A stretch of DNA of 64,000 nt, from NCBI GenBank assembly GCA_017503735.1, contig JAFVSN010000006.1, forward strand, positions 124,001 to 188,000, given 5' to 3'. Shown one piece after another: positions 49,912 through 62,995 of the stretch. Under the pieces are notes generated by a model, which worked only from the letters and a program-made list of their open reading frames with translations, was not told the origin of the DNA and searched no databases. The translations under genes were made by a program, and so were the position numbers. Position 1 is the first letter of the stretch. Each line of letters opens with the position of its first letter. Origin of the DNA: Lachnospiraceae bacterium. GTDB taxonomy: Bacteria; Bacillota; Clostridia; Lachnospirales; Lachnospiraceae.

Positions 49912-51630
49912 TTACTGAAACTGTGAAGCATAAAGTTTATAATAAAACCCTTGTTTTTGCATTAATTCCGTATGGGTTCCGCTCTCCTCTATGGTTCCGT
50001 TATTCACAACAATAATGTTGTCCGCGTTTTGTATGGTAGAAAGTCTGTGTGCAATCACAAAACAGGTTTTCCCCTCCATTAACTTTAACATAGCCGCCCG
50101 GATACGAAGCTCCGTCCGCGTATCTACATTTGAGGTTGCCTCATCCAAAATCAACATATTCGCTTCGGATAACATGGCTCTTGCAATGGTCAGCAACTGC
50201 TTCTGCCCCTTGGAAAGATTTACTCCGTCCTCCGTAATTACGGTATCATAACCGGCCGGCAGACGTTTTACAAACTCGTGTACTCCCGCCGCCTTTGCCG
50301 CCGCAATGACCTCTTCCCTGGTGGCCGAATCCCTTCCGTATGCGATATTTTCATGAACCGTCCCTTCAAACACCCAGGTATCCTGTAACACCATGGCATA
50401 AGAAGACCGCAAACTCTTCATTGTCACCTCCCGGTTTTCGTAGCCGTCCACCCGGATTTTGCCGCTTTGCGGATCATAAAAACGCATGAGAAGATTGATA
50501 ATCGTTGTTTTTCCGGCTCCCGTAGGACCTACGATTGCCACCAGTTGTCCCGGCTTTGCCTCCATGGACCAGTCTTTGATAATCGGCTTTTCCGGCACAT
50601 AGGAAAAATCCACATGCTCCATGGTTACATTTCCCTTCACTCCGGAAAGCTCTGTCGCACCGTAAATATCCTCCGCTTCCGTCGGTTCCTCAATGACACG
50701 GAATACCCGCTCCGCTGCGGAAAGTGCCGATTGAATTTCACTGACCACATTGGCCAGTTCGTTAATCGGGCCGGAAAATTTTCGGGAATACAGCACAAAG
50801 GAAGAAATGTCACCAAGGGACAATCTCTTTAACAAATACAGCACCGAACCTGCCACCGTCACTGCAGTCAGAGAACAGTTATTGATGAAATTCACCGTCG
50901 GACCGATCATACTGCCATAGTATTCCGCATTATAGTACGCCGTAACCGCTTCTTCGTTTTTTTCATCAAACCGGCTTGTCATAACCCGTTCTTTTGCATA
51001 GGCCTGTATGGTCTTCTGCCCCGTAATCAGTTCTTCCACCATACCGTTTAATTCCCCGGCTTTCGCGGAACGCTTTCTGAACATCGGCTTTGTTTTCTTT
51101 GCCATAAACCGGGTATAATATACCGACAACGGTATCATTAAAAACATAACCACCACAAGAGGCGGCGAAATAATCACCATCATTACCAACGAACCGATGA
51201 CGGTAACAAGCCCGGCCACCACCTGTACAAAATCATTGGATACCGAAGTGGAAATTACATCAATATCATAAGACACGCGGCTAATAATATCGCCTGCCTG
51301 ATTCCGGTCAAAATATCCCACCGGAAGCGAAAGGAGACGATCAAACACCTGCTGCCGCATCCGTGCTGCCATGCGTTGCGCAATCCGCAGCATCAAAATC
51401 GACAATGCATAAGAAAGTACCGCCGACACCACATAAAAGGCAATCATCCAACCCGCATAATACCATACGGTATCAAAATCTACCTTGCCTTTTCCCGGAG
51501 CAATGGCATCCACCGCTTTTCCGGACAGGGACGGTCCCACCAAAGCCAGAAGATTACTGGACACAGCCAGCACCAGGGCAAGAAGCAGATGAAATTTGTA
51601 GTTTGCCATGTAACGTAATAATCGTTTCAT
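49912..51630 (-). CDS. ABC exporter, transmembrane-ATPase half, canonical partner
   Basis: A 572-residue six-helix exporter half with its own ATPase. Walker A GPTGAGKTT, signature LSKGQKQLLTIARAM, Walker B MLILDEATSNVDTRTE with the catalytic Glu, and switch His in VIAHRLSTI. The substrate-loop basic motif and EVMTSRFDEKNEE lie in the coupling region. It begins ten bases after the other half-exporter at 51640, with which it should form a heterodimer of the TM287/288 or BmrCD kind. Drug or lipid export is likely; the substrate is unknown. Confidence 0.93.
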   Translation of the reverse strand: MKRLLRYMANYKFHLLLALVLAVSSNLLALVGPSLSGKAVDAIAPGKGKVDFDTVWYYAGWMIAFYVVSAVLSYALSILMLRIAQRMAARMRQQVFDRLLSLPVGYFDRNQAGDIISRVSYDIDVISTSVSNDFVQVVAGLVTVIGSLVMMVIISPPLVVVMFLMIPLSVYYTRFMAKKTKPMFRKRSAKAGELNGMVEELITGQKTIQAYAKERVMTSRFDEKNEEAVTAYYNAEYYGSMIGPTVNFINNCSLTAVTVAGSVLYLLKRLSLGDISSFVLYSRKFSGPINELANVVSEIQSALSAAERVFRVIEEPTEAEDIYGATELSGVKGNVTMEHVDFSYVPEKPIIKDWSMEAKPGQLVAIVGPTGAGKTTIINLLMRFYDPQSGKIRVDGYENREVTMKSLRSSYAMVLQDTWVFEGTVHENIAYGRDSATREEVIAAAKAAGVHEFVKRLPAGYDTVITEDGVNLSKGQKQLLTIARAMLSEANMLILDEATSNVDTRTELRIRAAMLKLMEGKTCFVIAHRLSTIQNADNIIVVNNGTIEESGTHTELMQKQGFYYKLYASQFQ

Positions 51631-51639
51631 CCTTGCCCC

Positions 51640-53379
51640 CTATTCCACATCGCCCATTTGCTGTTCGGCAATTTCGCGATATACTTCACATTGTTTCATC
51701 AATTCCTCATGGGTACCGTAACCGATACATTCTCCCTCATCAAGCACCAGAATATGCGTCATCTGCATTACGGAAGATGCCCGTTGTGCCACGAGAATCG
51801 TCGTGGTATCCCCATAGTTTTCCCTGATATTTTTACGAATCGTGGCATCGGTACGATAATCTAACGCTGAGGAGGCATCATCCAAAAGCAACACCTCCGG
51901 TGTACCTGCCAGGGCCCGCGCCACCAAAAGACGTTGCCTTTGTCCGCCGGACAAATCAGCTCCCTTGATTGCCGCCTTATGAGAATATCCCTCTTCCTTT
52001 CCGGCAATAAATCCGGATGCCAATGCATGCTCCGCTGCCCGTGCAACCGCTTCATCCTCCATCTGTCTGCCGAAGGCAATGTTCTCCCTTAAGGTATCCG
52101 CAAACACCACATCGTTTTGAAAAACCACACCGAACCGTTCCCGAAGTTCGGAGAGCGAAAGCTCTCTGATATCGGTTCCGTCAATCAGAATTTGTCCTTC
52201 CGTCACATCATAAAACCGCATCAAAAGATTTAAAAGAGTCGTCTTTCCGCTACCGGTGGCACCGATAATCCCGAGACTCTCCCCATGGGCAATTCGGAAA
52301 GAAATGTCCTTGATACAATATTTTTCCGTTTCTCCTTGTGCTGCATGATAACCGAAAGAAACCTTCTTAAACTCAATGTGCGGCACCTCCTTTCCCGGAC
52401 GCGTCGCAAACTCCTCTGCCTGTGAAACAAGTAACTCCGCCGGTGCAGAAAGAACCTCATCGATACGCACCGCAGAAGCGGTGGCTTTGGAAGCCACCAT
52501 AAAAATACGGTTAATCATAATCACCGCATTTAGAATCATCGTAAAGTAAGAAAGGAACGCCACAATCTTTCCCGGCTCACTGGCACCCCCGTTTACCCGG
52601 TATGCCCCCACAATAACAACCAGTGTCAAACCGATATTTAACAACAGACCCATAAGCGGTCCCGACAATGCCATTACGCTTCCCGCATGCAGTTCTCTTG
52701 TAAGCATACCATCATTGGCTTCACCGAAACGTTTCTTCTCATATTCGGTTTTCGACAGTGCTTTTATTACCCGGATACCGGAAATATTTTCCCGCATAAT
52801 CCGCACCATGGAATCCATGGAAGCCTGTACTTTTTTGTATAAGGGAATTCCCTTTCTTGAAATATAAAAAATCAGCCCGCCGAGAATCGGCAAAAGAATC
52901 ACCAGAACCAGTGTCAGCACCGGCTCCATGGTCAAAGTAATGATAATACCGCCGATCAGAATCATCGGTGCACGTACACCCAGTCGTTGCATCATCCCCA
53001 CCATATGATGAATGTTATAGGTATCGGAAGTCATGCGGGACACCAAAGACGGAATATGTAGCGCATCGGTCTGATTTCCCGACAATTCCATGGTTTTTAC
53101 GAACAAATCATGGCGTACCGCTCTGGTCACATCCCTTGCTACCAAAGAAGCTTTTCTGTTTGCCCAGATATTACAATACCTTGCCGCCAAAGCCAAAAAC
53201 AACATAACGGCACCCCAATAAAGCACCGGCCGGATTTTTCCTAACGGTACAACTTCATCCAATATGTACGACAACACCCAGGGCAGACCAAGGTCCGCAA
53301 AAGTTCCCGTAATCTTAATCAGAAAGCCGTACAGCATCCGTAAGGTGTACGGCTTACAATATCTGATAATTAACTTCAT
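51640..53379 (-). CDS. ABC exporter, transmembrane-ATPase half, degenerate partner
   Basis: A 579-residue half-exporter. Walker A GATGSGKTT and signature LSGGQRQRLLVARAL are standard, but Walker B reads VLLLDDASSALD: Asp replaces the catalytic Glu, and the switch position is Q (VAQRASSV) instead of His. Such a degenerate ATP site is the rule in one half of heterodimeric exporters, which supports pairing with the gene at 49912. The ATG follows AAGGAGATAGTTG; five bases separate it from the unknown membrane protein gene upstream. Confidence 0.93.
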   Translation of the reverse strand: MKLIIRYCKPYTLRMLYGFLIKITGTFADLGLPWVLSYILDEVVPLGKIRPVLYWGAVMLFLALAARYCNIWANRKASLVARDVTRAVRHDLFVKTMELSGNQTDALHIPSLVSRMTSDTYNIHHMVGMMQRLGVRAPMILIGGIIITLTMEPVLTLVLVILLPILGGLIFYISRKGIPLYKKVQASMDSMVRIMRENISGIRVIKALSKTEYEKKRFGEANDGMLTRELHAGSVMALSGPLMGLLLNIGLTLVVIVGAYRVNGGASEPGKIVAFLSYFTMILNAVIMINRIFMVASKATASAVRIDEVLSAPAELLVSQAEEFATRPGKEVPHIEFKKVSFGYHAAQGETEKYCIKDISFRIAHGESLGIIGATGSGKTTLLNLLMRFYDVTEGQILIDGTDIRELSLSELRERFGVVFQNDVVFADTLRENIAFGRQMEDEAVARAAEHALASGFIAGKEEGYSHKAAIKGADLSGGQRQRLLVARALAGTPEVLLLDDASSALDYRTDATIRKNIRENYGDTTTILVAQRASSVMQMTHILVLDEGECIGYGTHEELMKQCEVYREIAEQQMGDVE

Positions 53380-57713: not shown

Positions 57714-57763
57714 AAGCTCCCGACAACGAATCCTTTTCCATAAGAACTCGTTATCGGGAGCTT
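57714..57763. terminator. Intrinsic terminator of the DUF1854 exporter operon
   Basis: AAGCTCCCGA-C-AACGA pairs with TCGTT-A-TCGGGAGCTT (15 bp, one mismatch) around an 18-base loop. On the minus strand TTTTCTCTTT follows, about 22 bases after the exporter stop at 57785; the plus strand has a later T7 run. Confidence 0.85.
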
Positions 57764-57784: not shown

Positions 57785-59986
57785 CTACGCCCCTGCCGTC
57801 TCCTTCTTCGCCTGCATCTCAAGCTGGGCGGTTACAAGGCCGTAGTAGATACCCTTTCTTTCCATCAACTCGTCGTGGCTACCCATTTCCGCGATGCGGT
57901 GTTTATCAATTACCACCAGACGGTCTGCATTTTTCAGCGTCGATAAGCGGTGCGCAATGGCAAAGGTGGTCTTACCGGAGGTAAGACGTTCTAACGCAGT
58001 CTGTATCAGGTATTCGCTCTCCGTATCAAGGCTTGCGGTTGCCTCATCCAAAATTAAGATCTTCGGGTTATTTAAAATTGCTCTTGCGATAGCGATACGC
58101 TGACGTTCACCGCCGGATAAGCGGCTTCCCTTTTCACCCACATAGGTGTTGTAGCCGTCCGGCATACGGGTAATAAAGTCGTGGGCATTTGCCATCTTGG
58201 CAGCCATAATCACTTCTTCTTCCGTTGCATCCGGCTTTGCGTAACGAATGTTATTAAAAATAGTACCGGAGAACAGGAAGGTTTCCTGCAATACCACACC
58301 GATTTTGGAATGATAATAATCAAGATCAATGTCTTTAATATTTTCTCCGTCTACTATAAGTTCTCCGTCATCCACATCATACAGATGCATGATAAGGTTG
58401 ATGAGAGTGGACTTTCCGGCACCGGAAGCCCCCACAAGACCGATCATTTCTCCCGGCTTTACCGTAAGGTTAATGCCTTCTACCACCGGCTCGTAAGAAT
58501 GATAACCGAAGGTGGCATTCTTAAACTCAATGGCACCGGTAATCTCCGGCTTGCATGCCTTCTCTGTATTCTTAATCTTCGGCTCCTGGGTCATAATATC
58601 GTTGATACGTTCCATACTGGTTACCAGGTCCATAAGCTGACGCGGCAGGTTGTTAATCCATCCAAGATACATGTAAAGCATGGACGTATAACTGACAAAC
58701 TGCATTACTTCACCGGCGGTCATGGTCTCGCCCAACACACTTCTTCCGCCATAGAAAATAACCAGATAAACACCGGCACCCATCAGGAAGTTAAGAAGCG
58801 GGAAAAACATCGCCCAAAATACTTCGTTTCTCTTCTGTACGTTCGCAAATACATCGGAAAACATATTAAACTTATCGGATTCTTCCTGTTCCTTACCGTA
58901 GCCCTTTACTACATTCATACCGGAAATTACATCCTGTAATGCACTATGTACGTCATCGGACTTTTTCCCCTGAAAACGGAACCGGCGATGAATGTTCTTC
59001 CTCCACAGCATGGAAACCACCGCGGCAATCGGCACAAAAATAAAAGAAATCAGTGCCAGCTTCCAGTTCAATACCAGCATGTAAATTACAACTGCCACAA
59101 ACATGATAACTACCGTAAACATGTTACAGAATACATGCTCCATAAACATGCGGATCCGGTTCGTATCGTGCATAATACGGTTCATCAGCGCACCCGGACG
59201 CTTCTCATGAATGTAAGACAACGACAGTATCTGAATCTTATTGTACAGTTTGGAACGCAAATCCTTACCGATGGTAGAACCAAGCTTCGCACAACCGTAG
59301 CTCTTTCCGATATCTACCAAAGCAATTCCGATGCCCACTAAAAACATGGCAACCAACACCAACATCGCCGCAAAATACTTTTTTTCTCCACTGTACAATA
59401 TCTCATCCACCAGGTACTTCTGAAGTTCCGGACTGAACAGACCGATAATTGCACGGGTTACCATCAAAGTAATAATCGGAATCAACTGTTTTTTATAGGA
59501 ACCCAGAAGCTGTACAATCTGGAAAAAGACACCTCTGCTTTTCCGGTTACAATGCGGACACTCTTTGGTACCCGGCAACGCTCTTCCGCAAACAAAACAG
59601 GTCTTTTCATTCTCTTCACTCTCTGCGCGTTCGTTGCTTCCGCTCTTTAAAAGCGCAACACCTCTTGCCACATAAGCATATCGTGCCAAATGCTTGGAAG
59701 AATACCGCACAATCAAAAAATCCTGTCCGTCCTTTACCGCATACAATACACCACAGTTAATCCGCGGTTCCGCTTTCACCGCATCATACTCGGAAAGGTC
59801 GTATTCCTTTTCTTTCACAGCATCCCGCAACAGCATCAGCCGTTTATTTGTCACCACGGTAAATGCATTTTTCACATACTTGCCGGAAAGATCACAATCA
59901 TAAGGAACGGCATACAGCACCTCTTCTCCCTCTGTCAGGGCAAGGGCCGCAAGCTCCTTTGGACTTAATTCAAAATTTAATATCAT
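57785..59986 (-). CDS. ABC exporter with cytosolic N-terminal domain and zinc ribbon (A)
   Basis: A 733-residue protein. Residues ~1-120 form a PH-like beta domain (KNAFTVVTNKRLMLLRD), then CFVC (130-133) and CPHC (143-146) make a zinc ribbon ahead of the first helix. A six-helix exporter domain and a complete ATPase follow: Walker A GASGAGKST, LSGGERQRIAIARAI, ILILDEATASLD with catalytic Glu, IAHRLSTL. The ATG at 59986 is eight bases after GAGG; the longer frame lacks a site. It follows the DUF1854 gene by 60 bp. It probably pairs with the exporter at 60611; both ATP sites look active. Confidence 0.88.
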   Translation of the reverse strand: MILNFELSPKELAALALTEGEEVLYAVPYDCDLSGKYVKNAFTVVTNKRLMLLRDAVKEKEYDLSEYDAVKAEPRINCGVLYAVKDGQDFLIVRYSSKHLARYAYVARGVALLKSGSNERAESEENEKTCFVCGRALPGTKECPHCNRKSRGVFFQIVQLLGSYKKQLIPIITLMVTRAIIGLFSPELQKYLVDEILYSGEKKYFAAMLVLVAMFLVGIGIALVDIGKSYGCAKLGSTIGKDLRSKLYNKIQILSLSYIHEKRPGALMNRIMHDTNRIRMFMEHVFCNMFTVVIMFVAVVIYMLVLNWKLALISFIFVPIAAVVSMLWRKNIHRRFRFQGKKSDDVHSALQDVISGMNVVKGYGKEQEESDKFNMFSDVFANVQKRNEVFWAMFFPLLNFLMGAGVYLVIFYGGRSVLGETMTAGEVMQFVSYTSMLYMYLGWINNLPRQLMDLVTSMERINDIMTQEPKIKNTEKACKPEITGAIEFKNATFGYHSYEPVVEGINLTVKPGEMIGLVGASGAGKSTLINLIMHLYDVDDGELIVDGENIKDIDLDYYHSKIGVVLQETFLFSGTIFNNIRYAKPDATEEEVIMAAKMANAHDFITRMPDGYNTYVGEKGSRLSGGERQRIAIARAILNNPKILILDEATASLDTESEYLIQTALERLTSGKTTFAIAHRLSTLKNADRLVVIDKHRIAEMGSHDELMERKGIYYGLVTAQLEMQAKKETAGA

Positions 59987-60046
59987 ATGGATTTCCTCTC
60001 TTGCCGTCATGCAAGCCGGTTGGGGCGTTGCATGGGAACCACAACC

Positions 60047-60601
60047 TTACAGGAACAAATCTAACTTCTTCTGTTCCTTTATGGTAAGCTTCGATACATC
60101 CGGAATCTCAAACCGGTTTTCATCAATATCCGAAATTATGATTCTCGTATCGGAAAGATGCACCACCGCATTTCCTCCCATACGAATCACAAAGCGACAA
60201 TGCCCCCTGTCGGTTTCCACGTCAAAGTACGCGAAACCGTACTGGTCCTTAATCTGATAAATTTTCGTAATAATCGGTGTAAAATAACGAAGCGCAATCT
60301 GCTCCGAAAGCATCGCCCTTACTTCCTCCGGGAAGGTTTCCATACTCTCGATAACACCGATTTCCTTTGAGGTTTCCTCTGCGGTACGAATGGAGATATA
60401 CTTGCCCGGCTCGGAGAACGGGAACATCCGCACCACCTGTACACGGGAATACACTTCTCCCTCTACCGTAAGACTGACAAAACCGCCTTCGGTACGGGCA
60501 AAGGTCGCCGTTTCCGGAGTCAGATAACGGAGACGGAGCATTGCTTCCGTTTCCTGTTCCATCTGCTCCAAACTAAATTCTTCTTCAAAATGATCTCTCA
60601 C
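60047..60601 (-). CDS. DUF1854 protein between two ABC exporters
   Basis: A 184-residue soluble protein of the DUF1854 family. The centre VVRMFPFSEPGKYISIRT and EIGVIESMETFPEEVRAMLSEQIALRYFTPIITKI are diagnostic, followed by YGFAYFDVETDRGHCRFVIR. The start is a GTG five bases after AGGAGG, nine bases beyond the exporter stop, so it is translationally linked to 60611. Relatives elsewhere sit beside ABC transporters, some named after cyanophycin metabolism as I recall. Function unknown; likely a cytosolic accessory of the exporter pair. Confidence 0.88.
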   Translation of the reverse strand: MRDHFEEEFSLEQMEQETEAMLRLRYLTPETATFARTEGGFVSLTVEGEVYSRVQVVRMFPFSEPGKYISIRTAEETSKEIGVIESMETFPEEVRAMLSEQIALRYFTPIITKIYQIKDQYGFAYFDVETDRGHCRFVIRMGGNAVVHLSDTRIIISDIDENRFEIPDVSKLTIKEQKKLDLFL

Positions 60602-60610
60602 AATAGCCTC

Positions 60611-62995
60611 CTATTCCAGTCCCTTAAGTGCAAGAGCCTTTGTCTGCAATTCCATCAGCTTGTAGTAGGTACCGCGAAGTTCGGTAAGTTCCTCCTGGGT
60701 TCCTTCCTCCGTAATCCGGCCGTGATCCAATACAATCAGACGGTCCGCATCACGCAGGGTAGACAAACGATGGGCAATGGAAAGCGTGGTACGATTCTTT
60801 ACCAGATACTGCATGGACGTTTGAATCGCCTTCTCCGTTTCCGTATCCACAGATGCCGTAGCTTCGTCTAAAATCAAAATCTTCGGGTTTGCTAAAATTG
60901 CCCGGGCTATGGAAATACGTTGTCTCTCACCGCCGGAAAGCTGACGTCCCGAGGAACCGATGACCGTATCGTAACCGTCCGGCATACGAAGAATAAACTC
61001 GTGGGCACTTGCAAGTACCGCTGCCTGAATAATTTCTTCCTTTGTGGCCGTCGGATTTGCATAAGCAATATTCTGCTCTACCGTTCCCATAAAAATATAG
61101 GTTTCCTGAGATACCATCGCCACGTTACGACGTAAATCGTAAAAGGCCATATCCCTCACGTTAATACCGTCAATTAAAATCTGTCCTTCCTGCGGATCGT
61201 ACATACGGGAAATCAGATTTACAAGAGTGGTCTTTCCCGCACCGGAACGACCTACGATACCAAGCATCTCTCCCGGCTTAATATGTAAGGAAATATCCTT
61301 TAAAATCGGTTTGCTGATTTCATAGCCGAAAGTTACATGGTCGAGAACAATCTCGCCCTCCGGTTCGGACAGACGTACTGCCTGCTCCTTTTCCGTTACT
61401 TCCGGAATGGAATCCAGAATCTCAAACATACGCTGGGCACTGTTCATACTGTCGGACCAGTTGTTGAAAAATCCAGAAAAGAAGTCAAGAGGTCCCGCAA
61501 GCTGACCTACATATCCGGTAAAGGTAAGCAACATACCTACCTCAAAATAATCCGTTGCCATTACAAACCAAACACCCAGTGCCCAAACAATTAAGTTAAT
61601 CAGCTCTCTCACACTGGAAAAGATAATCCGGAACTTATTGTTGTAGCGGACAATATCCACCTCTGCCTCGGAAAGCTTTTTATTTCCCTTTTCAAAACGG
61701 GTGATTTCATTTTCCTGCTGACCGAAGGCCTTTACCACACGGGCACCGGTCAGGTTATCGTTTACATTACTGTTTACGGTACGCTCTTTTCTGTGACGAC
61801 GTCCGTACAAGCCCCAAAGCTTCGGACGAAGCTTCATACTGATGAAAATCGTAATCGGCATCAGCACCACCGCCACGATTGCCAGCTGCCAGCGCATGGA
61901 AAACATCACCGTCAGAGTAGCAATAATCGTAAATCCGTGTACAAAAGCGTAGGGCAATACATCCACGAAAAATCCGGTAACCCGGTCCGCATCGCTTAAC
62001 ACACGGGTCATTAAGCTACCGGTCTGTCTGCTCTTAAAGAACTGGATAGACAGCTTTCCCATCTGGTTAAACACGTCCTTTTTCATATCCCGGACAACGC
62101 TTACCACCACCTTCGCGGTAATCACACCGTGGATAATCTGGAACAGCTGCAACACCAGTCTCGTTAAGAACATAACCACCACAAGAATGGTCAGTGCCGT
62201 AAATACCTCTACTTTTTCAAGCCCAAACGGCTCTAAAAAGGTAAGGTTCTTCCGTAATACATAATCGTACAGCACCGTACCGCTCAAATACGGCCAGATC
62301 AGATTTAACAGTGCCGTAATAATGATGCTGGCAAACAACAAAACCAGTGCGCCGGTATAGGGCTTAAAATACGAAAAGGTACGTACAAAAACCGACTTAC
62401 GGTCCATACACTTCGGACAAATTTTCCGGTTCATGTCCGGATACATGGTACCGCACTTCGGGCAATACTCCTCTTCCTCCGGCCCACCGTGGCCACCCCG
62501 TCCGAAACGACCGCCCGGCCTGCCGTGTCCTCCATGCCCACCGTGTCCGGTCTTCCCTTCATGCGTTTCTCCTTGTTCAGCATTGTCCAGATGCTCAAAT
62601 TCACGCACAAGCTCATATGCATTTTTAATACAAAAATTAGAAAATGCGGCAAGAATACGATCCGTTCCTTTTACCTTTGCGGTAAGAACGGCGCATGCCA
62701 CCTGACGTTCAATCCTTGTCTCGGAAAGCTCCTCCACGGAATACACGACAAGATTCCACTCTCGCAATTCCTTCGGCTCATCCGACACCGGATATCCCTT
62801 AAAGATATGCACCTCCGATTTGACTTCCGGAGAAGAGGCTATCGCCAACTTCTCCTTTGTCAGTACCAAATACCCGTCCGCATATTCACAGGCGGTATTC
62901 ATATCGGTGCGTGCCCCCGATAAAATCTGATCTTTTTCAATTCCCTGCTGTTTTAACAGGCTCCATACCGTTTCCGGCATTTTCGGTATACGCAT
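60611..62995 (-). CDS. ABC exporter with cytosolic N-terminal domain, His/Gly linker and zinc ribbon (B)
   Basis: A 794-residue exporter. Residues ~1-135 form a soluble domain (GYLVLTKEKLAIAS) like that of exporter A. A His/Gly-rich linker follows at ~147-172 (GHGGHGGHGRPGG), then CPKC (178-181) and CPKC (193-196), six helices and an ATPase with Walker A GRSGAGKTT, LSGGERQRISIARAI, ILILDEATASVD and IAHRLSTL. Start behind GAAGGAGAACATT. The His-rich linker and zinc ribbon suggest metal sensing or a regulatory contact. First gene of the three-gene operon B-DUF1854-A, just downstream of aspS. Confidence 0.88.
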   Translation of the reverse strand: MRIPKMPETVWSLLKQQGIEKDQILSGARTDMNTACEYADGYLVLTKEKLAIASSPEVKSEVHIFKGYPVSDEPKELREWNLVVYSVEELSETRIERQVACAVLTAKVKGTDRILAAFSNFCIKNAYELVREFEHLDNAEQGETHEGKTGHGGHGGHGRPGGRFGRGGHGGPEEEEYCPKCGTMYPDMNRKICPKCMDRKSVFVRTFSYFKPYTGALVLLFASIIITALLNLIWPYLSGTVLYDYVLRKNLTFLEPFGLEKVEVFTALTILVVVMFLTRLVLQLFQIIHGVITAKVVVSVVRDMKKDVFNQMGKLSIQFFKSRQTGSLMTRVLSDADRVTGFFVDVLPYAFVHGFTIIATLTVMFSMRWQLAIVAVVLMPITIFISMKLRPKLWGLYGRRHRKERTVNSNVNDNLTGARVVKAFGQQENEITRFEKGNKKLSEAEVDIVRYNNKFRIIFSSVRELINLIVWALGVWFVMATDYFEVGMLLTFTGYVGQLAGPLDFFSGFFNNWSDSMNSAQRMFEILDSIPEVTEKEQAVRLSEPEGEIVLDHVTFGYEISKPILKDISLHIKPGEMLGIVGRSGAGKTTLVNLISRMYDPQEGQILIDGINVRDMAFYDLRRNVAMVSQETYIFMGTVEQNIAYANPTATKEEIIQAAVLASAHEFILRMPDGYDTVIGSSGRQLSGGERQRISIARAILANPKILILDEATASVDTETEKAIQTSMQYLVKNRTTLSIAHRLSTLRDADRLIVLDHGRITEEGTQEELTELRGTYYKLMELQTKALALKGLE

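Follow-up and report, generated by a model that had tools for sequence, protein, structure and literature searches.

Type IV heterodimeric ABC exporters, to which TmrAB and BmrCD belong, are composed of two half-transporters of the same fold. One of them, TM287/288, is reported to have a non-canonical ATP site (PMC5216877). Bacterial PH domains are likewise on record (bPH_3, PF14470; PDB entries 3hsa and 3dcx), but cytosolic arms of PH type did not turn up in any described ABC exporter that we came across. Pfam lists DUF1854 (PF08909) as a family of unknown function, and NCBIfam holds curated models for a wider pairing of an exporter with a DUF1854 protein, NF052233 (CphA_assoc_ABC) and NF052234 (CphA_assoc_prot). 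Among the papers searched, none dealt with this wider pair and none contained the term DUF1854.

Here we analyze a 64,000-nucleotide stretch of a Lachnospiraceae contig (JAFVSN010000006.1, positions 124,001 to 188,000; termed here the window), in which a DUF1854 gene lies between genes for two exporter halves, A and B. The initial annotation of this locus suggested an undescribed transport system, which is too strong a term given the NCBIfam models, but the combination of an exporter pair with DUF1854 looks new in this form, its parts belonging to a family already on record. A and B resemble TM287/288 in being a pair of half-transporters that share one fold; they differ from it in that both of their ATP sites appear consensus-like and that the pair has N-terminal extensions and a DUF1854 partner. 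There is good support for a dedicated system of two exporters to which DUF1854 belongs as a fixed partner, and we consider it rather probable that the three proteins form a three-subunit ABC exporter, in which an A/B heterodimer is joined by DUF1854 as a cytosolic regulatory or assembly subunit.

Organization of the cassette

The ORF list and Pfam searches confirmed the three genes originally noted, all co-directional on the minus strand in the order B, DUF1854, A:

60611..62995, minus strand: B, type IV (ABCB/MsbA-like) ABC exporter half, 794 aa (ORF, Pfam, B clade)
62576..62995, minus strand: N-terminal soluble domain of B, approximately residues 1-140 (homology to the PH-like domain of A; conserved in relatives)
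62480..62569, minus strand: non-conserved His/Gly-rich linker in B, residues 143-172 (such linkers in 10/230 extensions)
62408..62464, minus strand: two-CxxC ribbon of B, residues 178-196 (C178, C181, C193 and C196 at least 90% conserved)
60602..60613, minus strand: stop codon of B overlapping the DUF1854 ribosome-binding site (GGAGG), 9-nt gap (sequence)
60047..60601, minus strand: DUF1854 protein, 184 aa, GTG start (PF08909 E 1.8e-38; AlphaFold2 model with pLDDT 80.1, pTM 0.50)
60008..60034, minus strand: perfect inverted repeat of 7 bp with a 13-base loop, in the gap from DUF1854 to A (read by eye)
57785..59986, minus strand: A, type IV ABC exporter half, probably 733 aa (741 aa from 60010), with PH-like domain and two-CxxC ribbon (ORF, Pfam, GAGAGG before ATG 59986)
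59636..59986, minus strand: predicted PH-superfold domain of A, residues 1-117 of the 733-aa form (AlphaFold2 model, PDB fold matches)
59549..59599, minus strand: two-CxxC ribbon of A, C130-C146 (four Cys invariant in 65 sequences)
57715..57762, minus strand: terminator-like hairpin, 20 pairs counted, directly 3' of A (consensus scan only)

In A as in B, Pfam finds ABC_membrane and ABC_tran fused in one chain, and the DUF1854 protein is a family member by score (131.8 bits against PF08909, gathering cut-off 26.8). The proposed translational linkage of the DUF1854 gene between the exporters is borne out by its spacing, with the GTG start 9 nt from the B stop codon and the ribosome-binding site overlapping that stop. 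The gap from DUF1854 to A measures 36 nt if A begins at the listed ATG (60010) and 60 nt if it begins at the ATG at 59986; the latter is the likelier start, and A thus probably measures 733 rather than 741 aa, because the GAGAGG preceding it is a better ribosome-binding site than that of the upstream ATG. The A extensions of many relatives also begin at the position matching ATG 59986. The 7-bp inverted repeat overlaps the upstream ATG of A, and the hairpin following A is among the longest of the 16 sites recovered in a consensus scan for terminators (9.9 expected in shuffles). The cassette is flanked on one side by an aspS-like gene (63105 to the window end, which by eye we take to be aspS) and on the other by two lipoprotein-like genes.

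Exporters and DUF1854 occur together

We assembled two overlapping sets of loci, the first (n=61) consisting of the window and 60 loci around DUF1854 from Bacillota genomes, and the second (n=72) drawn from named genomes, for a total of 123 distinct loci besides the window. An exporter adjoins DUF1854 in all 61 and all 72 loci (in L112, at a contig end, as a C-terminal ATPase fragment only), such that DUF1854 was never encountered independently of exporters in either set. The order B-DUF1854-A is present in 67 of the 72 loci of the second set, and the other five (L163, L174, L185, L186, L194) end at contig edges, with the start of A visible in L163 and L186. The first set contains 36 loci of this order and 20 in which a single exporter precedes DUF1854, together with two contig-cut pairs (L087, L104) and three loci that are ambiguous at contig ends (L101, L112, L126). 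B is interrupted in one locus (L189), possibly through an error. Among all 124 distinct loci, the gene immediately preceding DUF1854 encodes an exporter in 118 (labelled B in 102 and A in 16, according to closer resemblance to B or A of the window), and A lies downstream in 93; the six loci lacking a separate upstream exporter are either cut by contig ends (L087, L112, L185) or encode fusions (L088, L089, L199).

The association extends to whole genomes: when 80 genomes were searched with a profile of the A extension, matches were obtained in 15 of the 17 genomes with DUF1854 and in none of the 63 without, and the two DUF1854-positive genomes that were missed (G467, G776) carry single exporters. 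Together with the separation of A and B into two clades (see below), this upholds the view of a dedicated pair tied to DUF1854. The strict bond among A, B and DUF1854 makes this family one in which the function of DUF1854, and the control of a transporter by a bacterial PH domain, can be tested.

The window's genus is represented by ten genomes, counting the source genome, and each of them has DUF1854, as do 12/61 genomes of a search among relatives, 63/391 genomes drawn from the class (62 of them over the cut-off) and 20/398 drawn from the phylum. Several genomes have two or three matches, and one (G380) contains one single and two paired cassettes. The archaeon Sulfolobus acidocaldarius, included as a control genome, also yielded matches, so that this family without known function, found here across Bacillota, reaches beyond bacteria. 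Two further homologues, with 60% and 30% identity (L208, MT835803.1; L209, MT837274.1), come from records labelled UNVERIFIED Bacteriophage sp. and more likely represent bacterial DNA in a virome.

Origin of the exporter pair

In a tree of 118 exporters, inferred by a fast method (FastTree) and having an outgroup with long branches, A and B sequences form two clades, each with one partner per locus; the sequences labelled single within these clades, one in each (L087, L104), derive from contig-cut pairs. The 20 true single exporters are situated outside both clades, and eight generic exporters lie further out. On the simplest reading of this topology, the two-exporter system would have come from a system with one exporter by a single old duplication. 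Distances over 84 loci correlate at r 0.97 for A and B, 0.95 for B and DUF1854 and 0.94 for A and DUF1854 (permutation maximum 0.25), indicating joint inheritance, although such correlations alone are no proof of contact.

In three loci, whose B sequences are scattered over separate parts of the B clade, DUF1854 is fused in frame to the C-terminus of B (L088, 955 aa; L089, 1024 aa; L199, 940 aa), and these natural fusions provide the best sequence evidence for a putative DUF1854 docking site. A PH superfold was also considered for the C-terminal half of DUF1854; the AlphaFold2 model of the protein is weak and gave no confident fold match, and a sequence search for relatives of solved structure found none.

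Both ATP sites appear intact

The initial annotation stated that both ATPase halves keep the catalytic Glu, and this holds across the exporters surveyed: Walker A and the Glu after the Walker-B Asp are present in 101/101 A, 101/101 B and 26/26 single exporters. A single B escaped the H-loop pattern, and the signature pattern failed to pick up 5/101 A and 1/101 B. From these motifs the ATP sites of A and B both look intact, that is, consensus and catalytically competent. Because Walker A and the Walker-B Glu are kept in all A and B, the pair is not a classical one-site heterodimer, in which one of the two ATP sites would be degenerate. A heterodimer of A and B is likely; two consensus ATP sites would also permit A/A and B/B homodimers. 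Elsewhere in the window, a second ABC exporter pair (49912-53379, minus strand) has Asp-Asp at the Walker-B catalytic position of one subunit, which, unlike A and B, probably has a degenerate ATP site.

The cores of A and B belong to the MsbA/TM288/ABCB group, and TM288, a bacterial protein, scores higher than any other bacterial chain in the PDB match lists for the exporters. This affiliation, along with varied and often housekeeping-like neighbours of the kind expected for a stand-alone exporter, is compatible with an ordinary multidrug or lipid exporter pair whose extensions and DUF1854 are structural only and sense nothing. We regard this alternative as unlikely, however, since the bond between DUF1854 and the extension is exclusive in the 80 genomes searched, the tree places its eight generic exporters outside the A/B/single family, and both sites of A and B are consensus, as opposed to those of the neighbouring pair with its Asp in place of the Walker-B Glu.

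PH-like domains and cysteine ribbons

The soluble N-terminal parts and their two-CxxC ribbons, which might have proved peculiar to the window, are conserved in homologous loci. At least two CxxC motifs are present in 103/103 A, 97/101 B and 26/26 extensions classed as single, in a set (n=230) that includes some duplicate loci, counts contig-cut pairs as single and leaves out exporters with a cut or missing start. All four Cys of the A ribbon are invariant across 65 A sequences. The B ribbon is absent from three loci that form one B clade in the FastTree phylogeny (L084, L199, L203) and in which the A ribbon is kept, which makes zinc in B appear dispensable. Their four Cys make the ribbons candidate metal sites, and the metal would probably be Zn. 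The His/Gly-rich linker is indeed present in B of the window but is not general, occurring in 10/230 extensions, all of them in B. One single exporter (L134) has no extension in the frame found, which may be an error.

The PH-like domains originally assigned to both exporters are best documented for A, where 29 of 65 extensions match bPH_3 (PF14470) at E 0.01 or better, the window's own domain scoring 20.7, under the Pfam cut-off of 23. The AlphaFold2 model of the A extension (residues 1-156; pLDDT 89.2, pTM 0.83) predicts a PH superfold, a seven-strand barrel with a C-terminal helix cap, and matches PH, GLUE and FERM-F3 folds by PDB fold comparison. None of 64 B extensions matches bPH_3, and the putative assignment for B comes from profile homology to the A extension (hhalign, 99.7%, E 3.5e-26), to which the ribbon contributes. 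From the bacterial PH domains already described, the window's domain differs in being fused to an ABC exporter via a ribbon.

A proposed mechanism

In the three-subunit exporter that we favour, A and B would form a heterodimer whose two ATP sites are both catalytically competent, and in each half a four-cysteine (probably Zn) ribbon would connect a PH-superfold domain to the elbow helix before the first membrane helix. Because the ribbon ties the PH domain to the elbow helix, we propose that the PH domains are held on the cytosolic face beside lipid headgroups. DUF1854, as a permanent cytosolic subunit, would dock on the exporter, most likely making first contact at the C-terminus of the ATPase of B, and would hold or release the PH domains and ATPase halves, acting as an assembly or regulatory subunit and not as an enzyme. 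Transport may be gated by a metal or lipid sensor, as first suggested for this locus, which is a fair if speculative hypothesis. More tentatively, and with somewhat less than even confidence, we suggest that DUF1854 reads a membrane, metal or second-messenger signal via the PH-plus-ribbon arms and licenses ATP-driven export, in a system that is patchy in Bacillota, that descends through one duplication from a form with a single exporter, and for which our searches gave no counterpart among solved ABC exporters. The direction of transport is presumably outward, and our guess, given the small number of conserved charges in the membrane helices, is that the substrate is amphipathic or lipid-like.

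Relationship to cyanophycin-associated families

Within NCBIfam, A and B both score highest against NF052233 (546 and 536 bits, cut-off 880), and the DUF1854 protein against NF052234 (89 bits, cut-off 150). A aligns almost end to end (positions 24-750 of 766), indicating that the architecture, including the extension, is common to the NF052233 family, whereas B aligns at positions 137-746, from its ribbon on. For seven exporters from other loci NF052233 is also the best named family, all below cut-off, and three DUF1854 proteins of other loci were all below cut-off as well, one of the three without any match. The cassette therefore resembles NF052233/NF052234 as its best-scoring family, with extension and ribbon aligned and a DUF1854 partner, but it differs in scores far below cut-off and in having two diverged exporters instead of one.

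These matches would fit a cyanophycin-metabolism ABC transporter that moves a cyanophycin precursor or product, but we consider this highly improbable. Besides the scores falling below the curated cut-offs, no cyanophycin synthetase (CphA) was found in the source genome (94.6% complete; best 129 bits, cut-off 850). CphA is present in 7/63 DUF1854-positive and 73/328 negative genomes of the class sample (Fisher p 0.06) and in 1/20 and 121/378 of the phylum sample (Fisher p 0.01), the genomes being non-independent in both, and is thus, if anything, rarer in DUF1854-positive genomes of the sampled Bacillota. In the eight genomes with both (among which the DUF1854 match of G267 is under cut-off and the CphA of G088 is truncated), the two genes share a contig only in G102, where 488 kb separate them. 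A cyanophycin-associated identity is thereby largely refuted for the window's lineage, the association with CphA, a feature we take from the model name, being lacking in the Bacillota sampled; we would accordingly advise against extending the name "cyanophycin metabolism-associated" to relatives in Bacillota.

Genomic neighbourhood

Neighbours differ between loci and many look like housekeeping genes; among the 69 upstream and 64 downstream neighbours read, no gene is common to all loci, and no substrate can be deduced from context. Six of the downstream neighbours, all in single-exporter loci (L103, L108, L110, L115, L119, L124), are PF06153 cyclic-di-AMP-receptor-like genes situated 21-78 nt after DUF1854 in otherwise different surroundings. 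A signalling link is possible there, and might mean that what DUF1854 relays to the exporter is a signal from a second messenger or metabolite, not from lipids or metals; we find this improbable, since the PF06153 neighbour is confined to one clade of single-exporter systems and is absent from the window's locus.

At least ten of the 69 upstream neighbours are glycoside hydrolases (5 GH43, 3 GH113, 2 GH95), and the cassette adjoins such genes in several Lachnospiraceae and relatives (L164, L171, L172, L182, L197, L145, L146, L148). If the system, despite its exporter fold, carried oligosaccharides of plant cell walls or their by-products, this could account for GH43-GH36-GH43 before B in L171 (L164 and L172 likewise by similarity), for the GH3, GH67 and esterase genes that follow A in L197, and for GH113 before B in L145, L146 and L148. 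We hold it to be very unlikely, however, in that, beyond the window's genus, only 15 of the 115 distinct loci had a hit to these families, with queries themselves picked from neighbours; neither the window nor the eight loci of its genus had one, and several of the loci concerned have a separate sugar-type importer alongside.

Ten of the 69 upstream neighbours have an ABC_tran domain, about eight of them in a MacAB/FtsX-like operon as judged from the locus listing. Such operons, comprising HlyD-like proteins, an FtsX permease and ATPases (content Pfam-checked in L178 only), lie upstream of B in L162, L168, L177, L178, L180, L183, L184, L189, L193 and L206.
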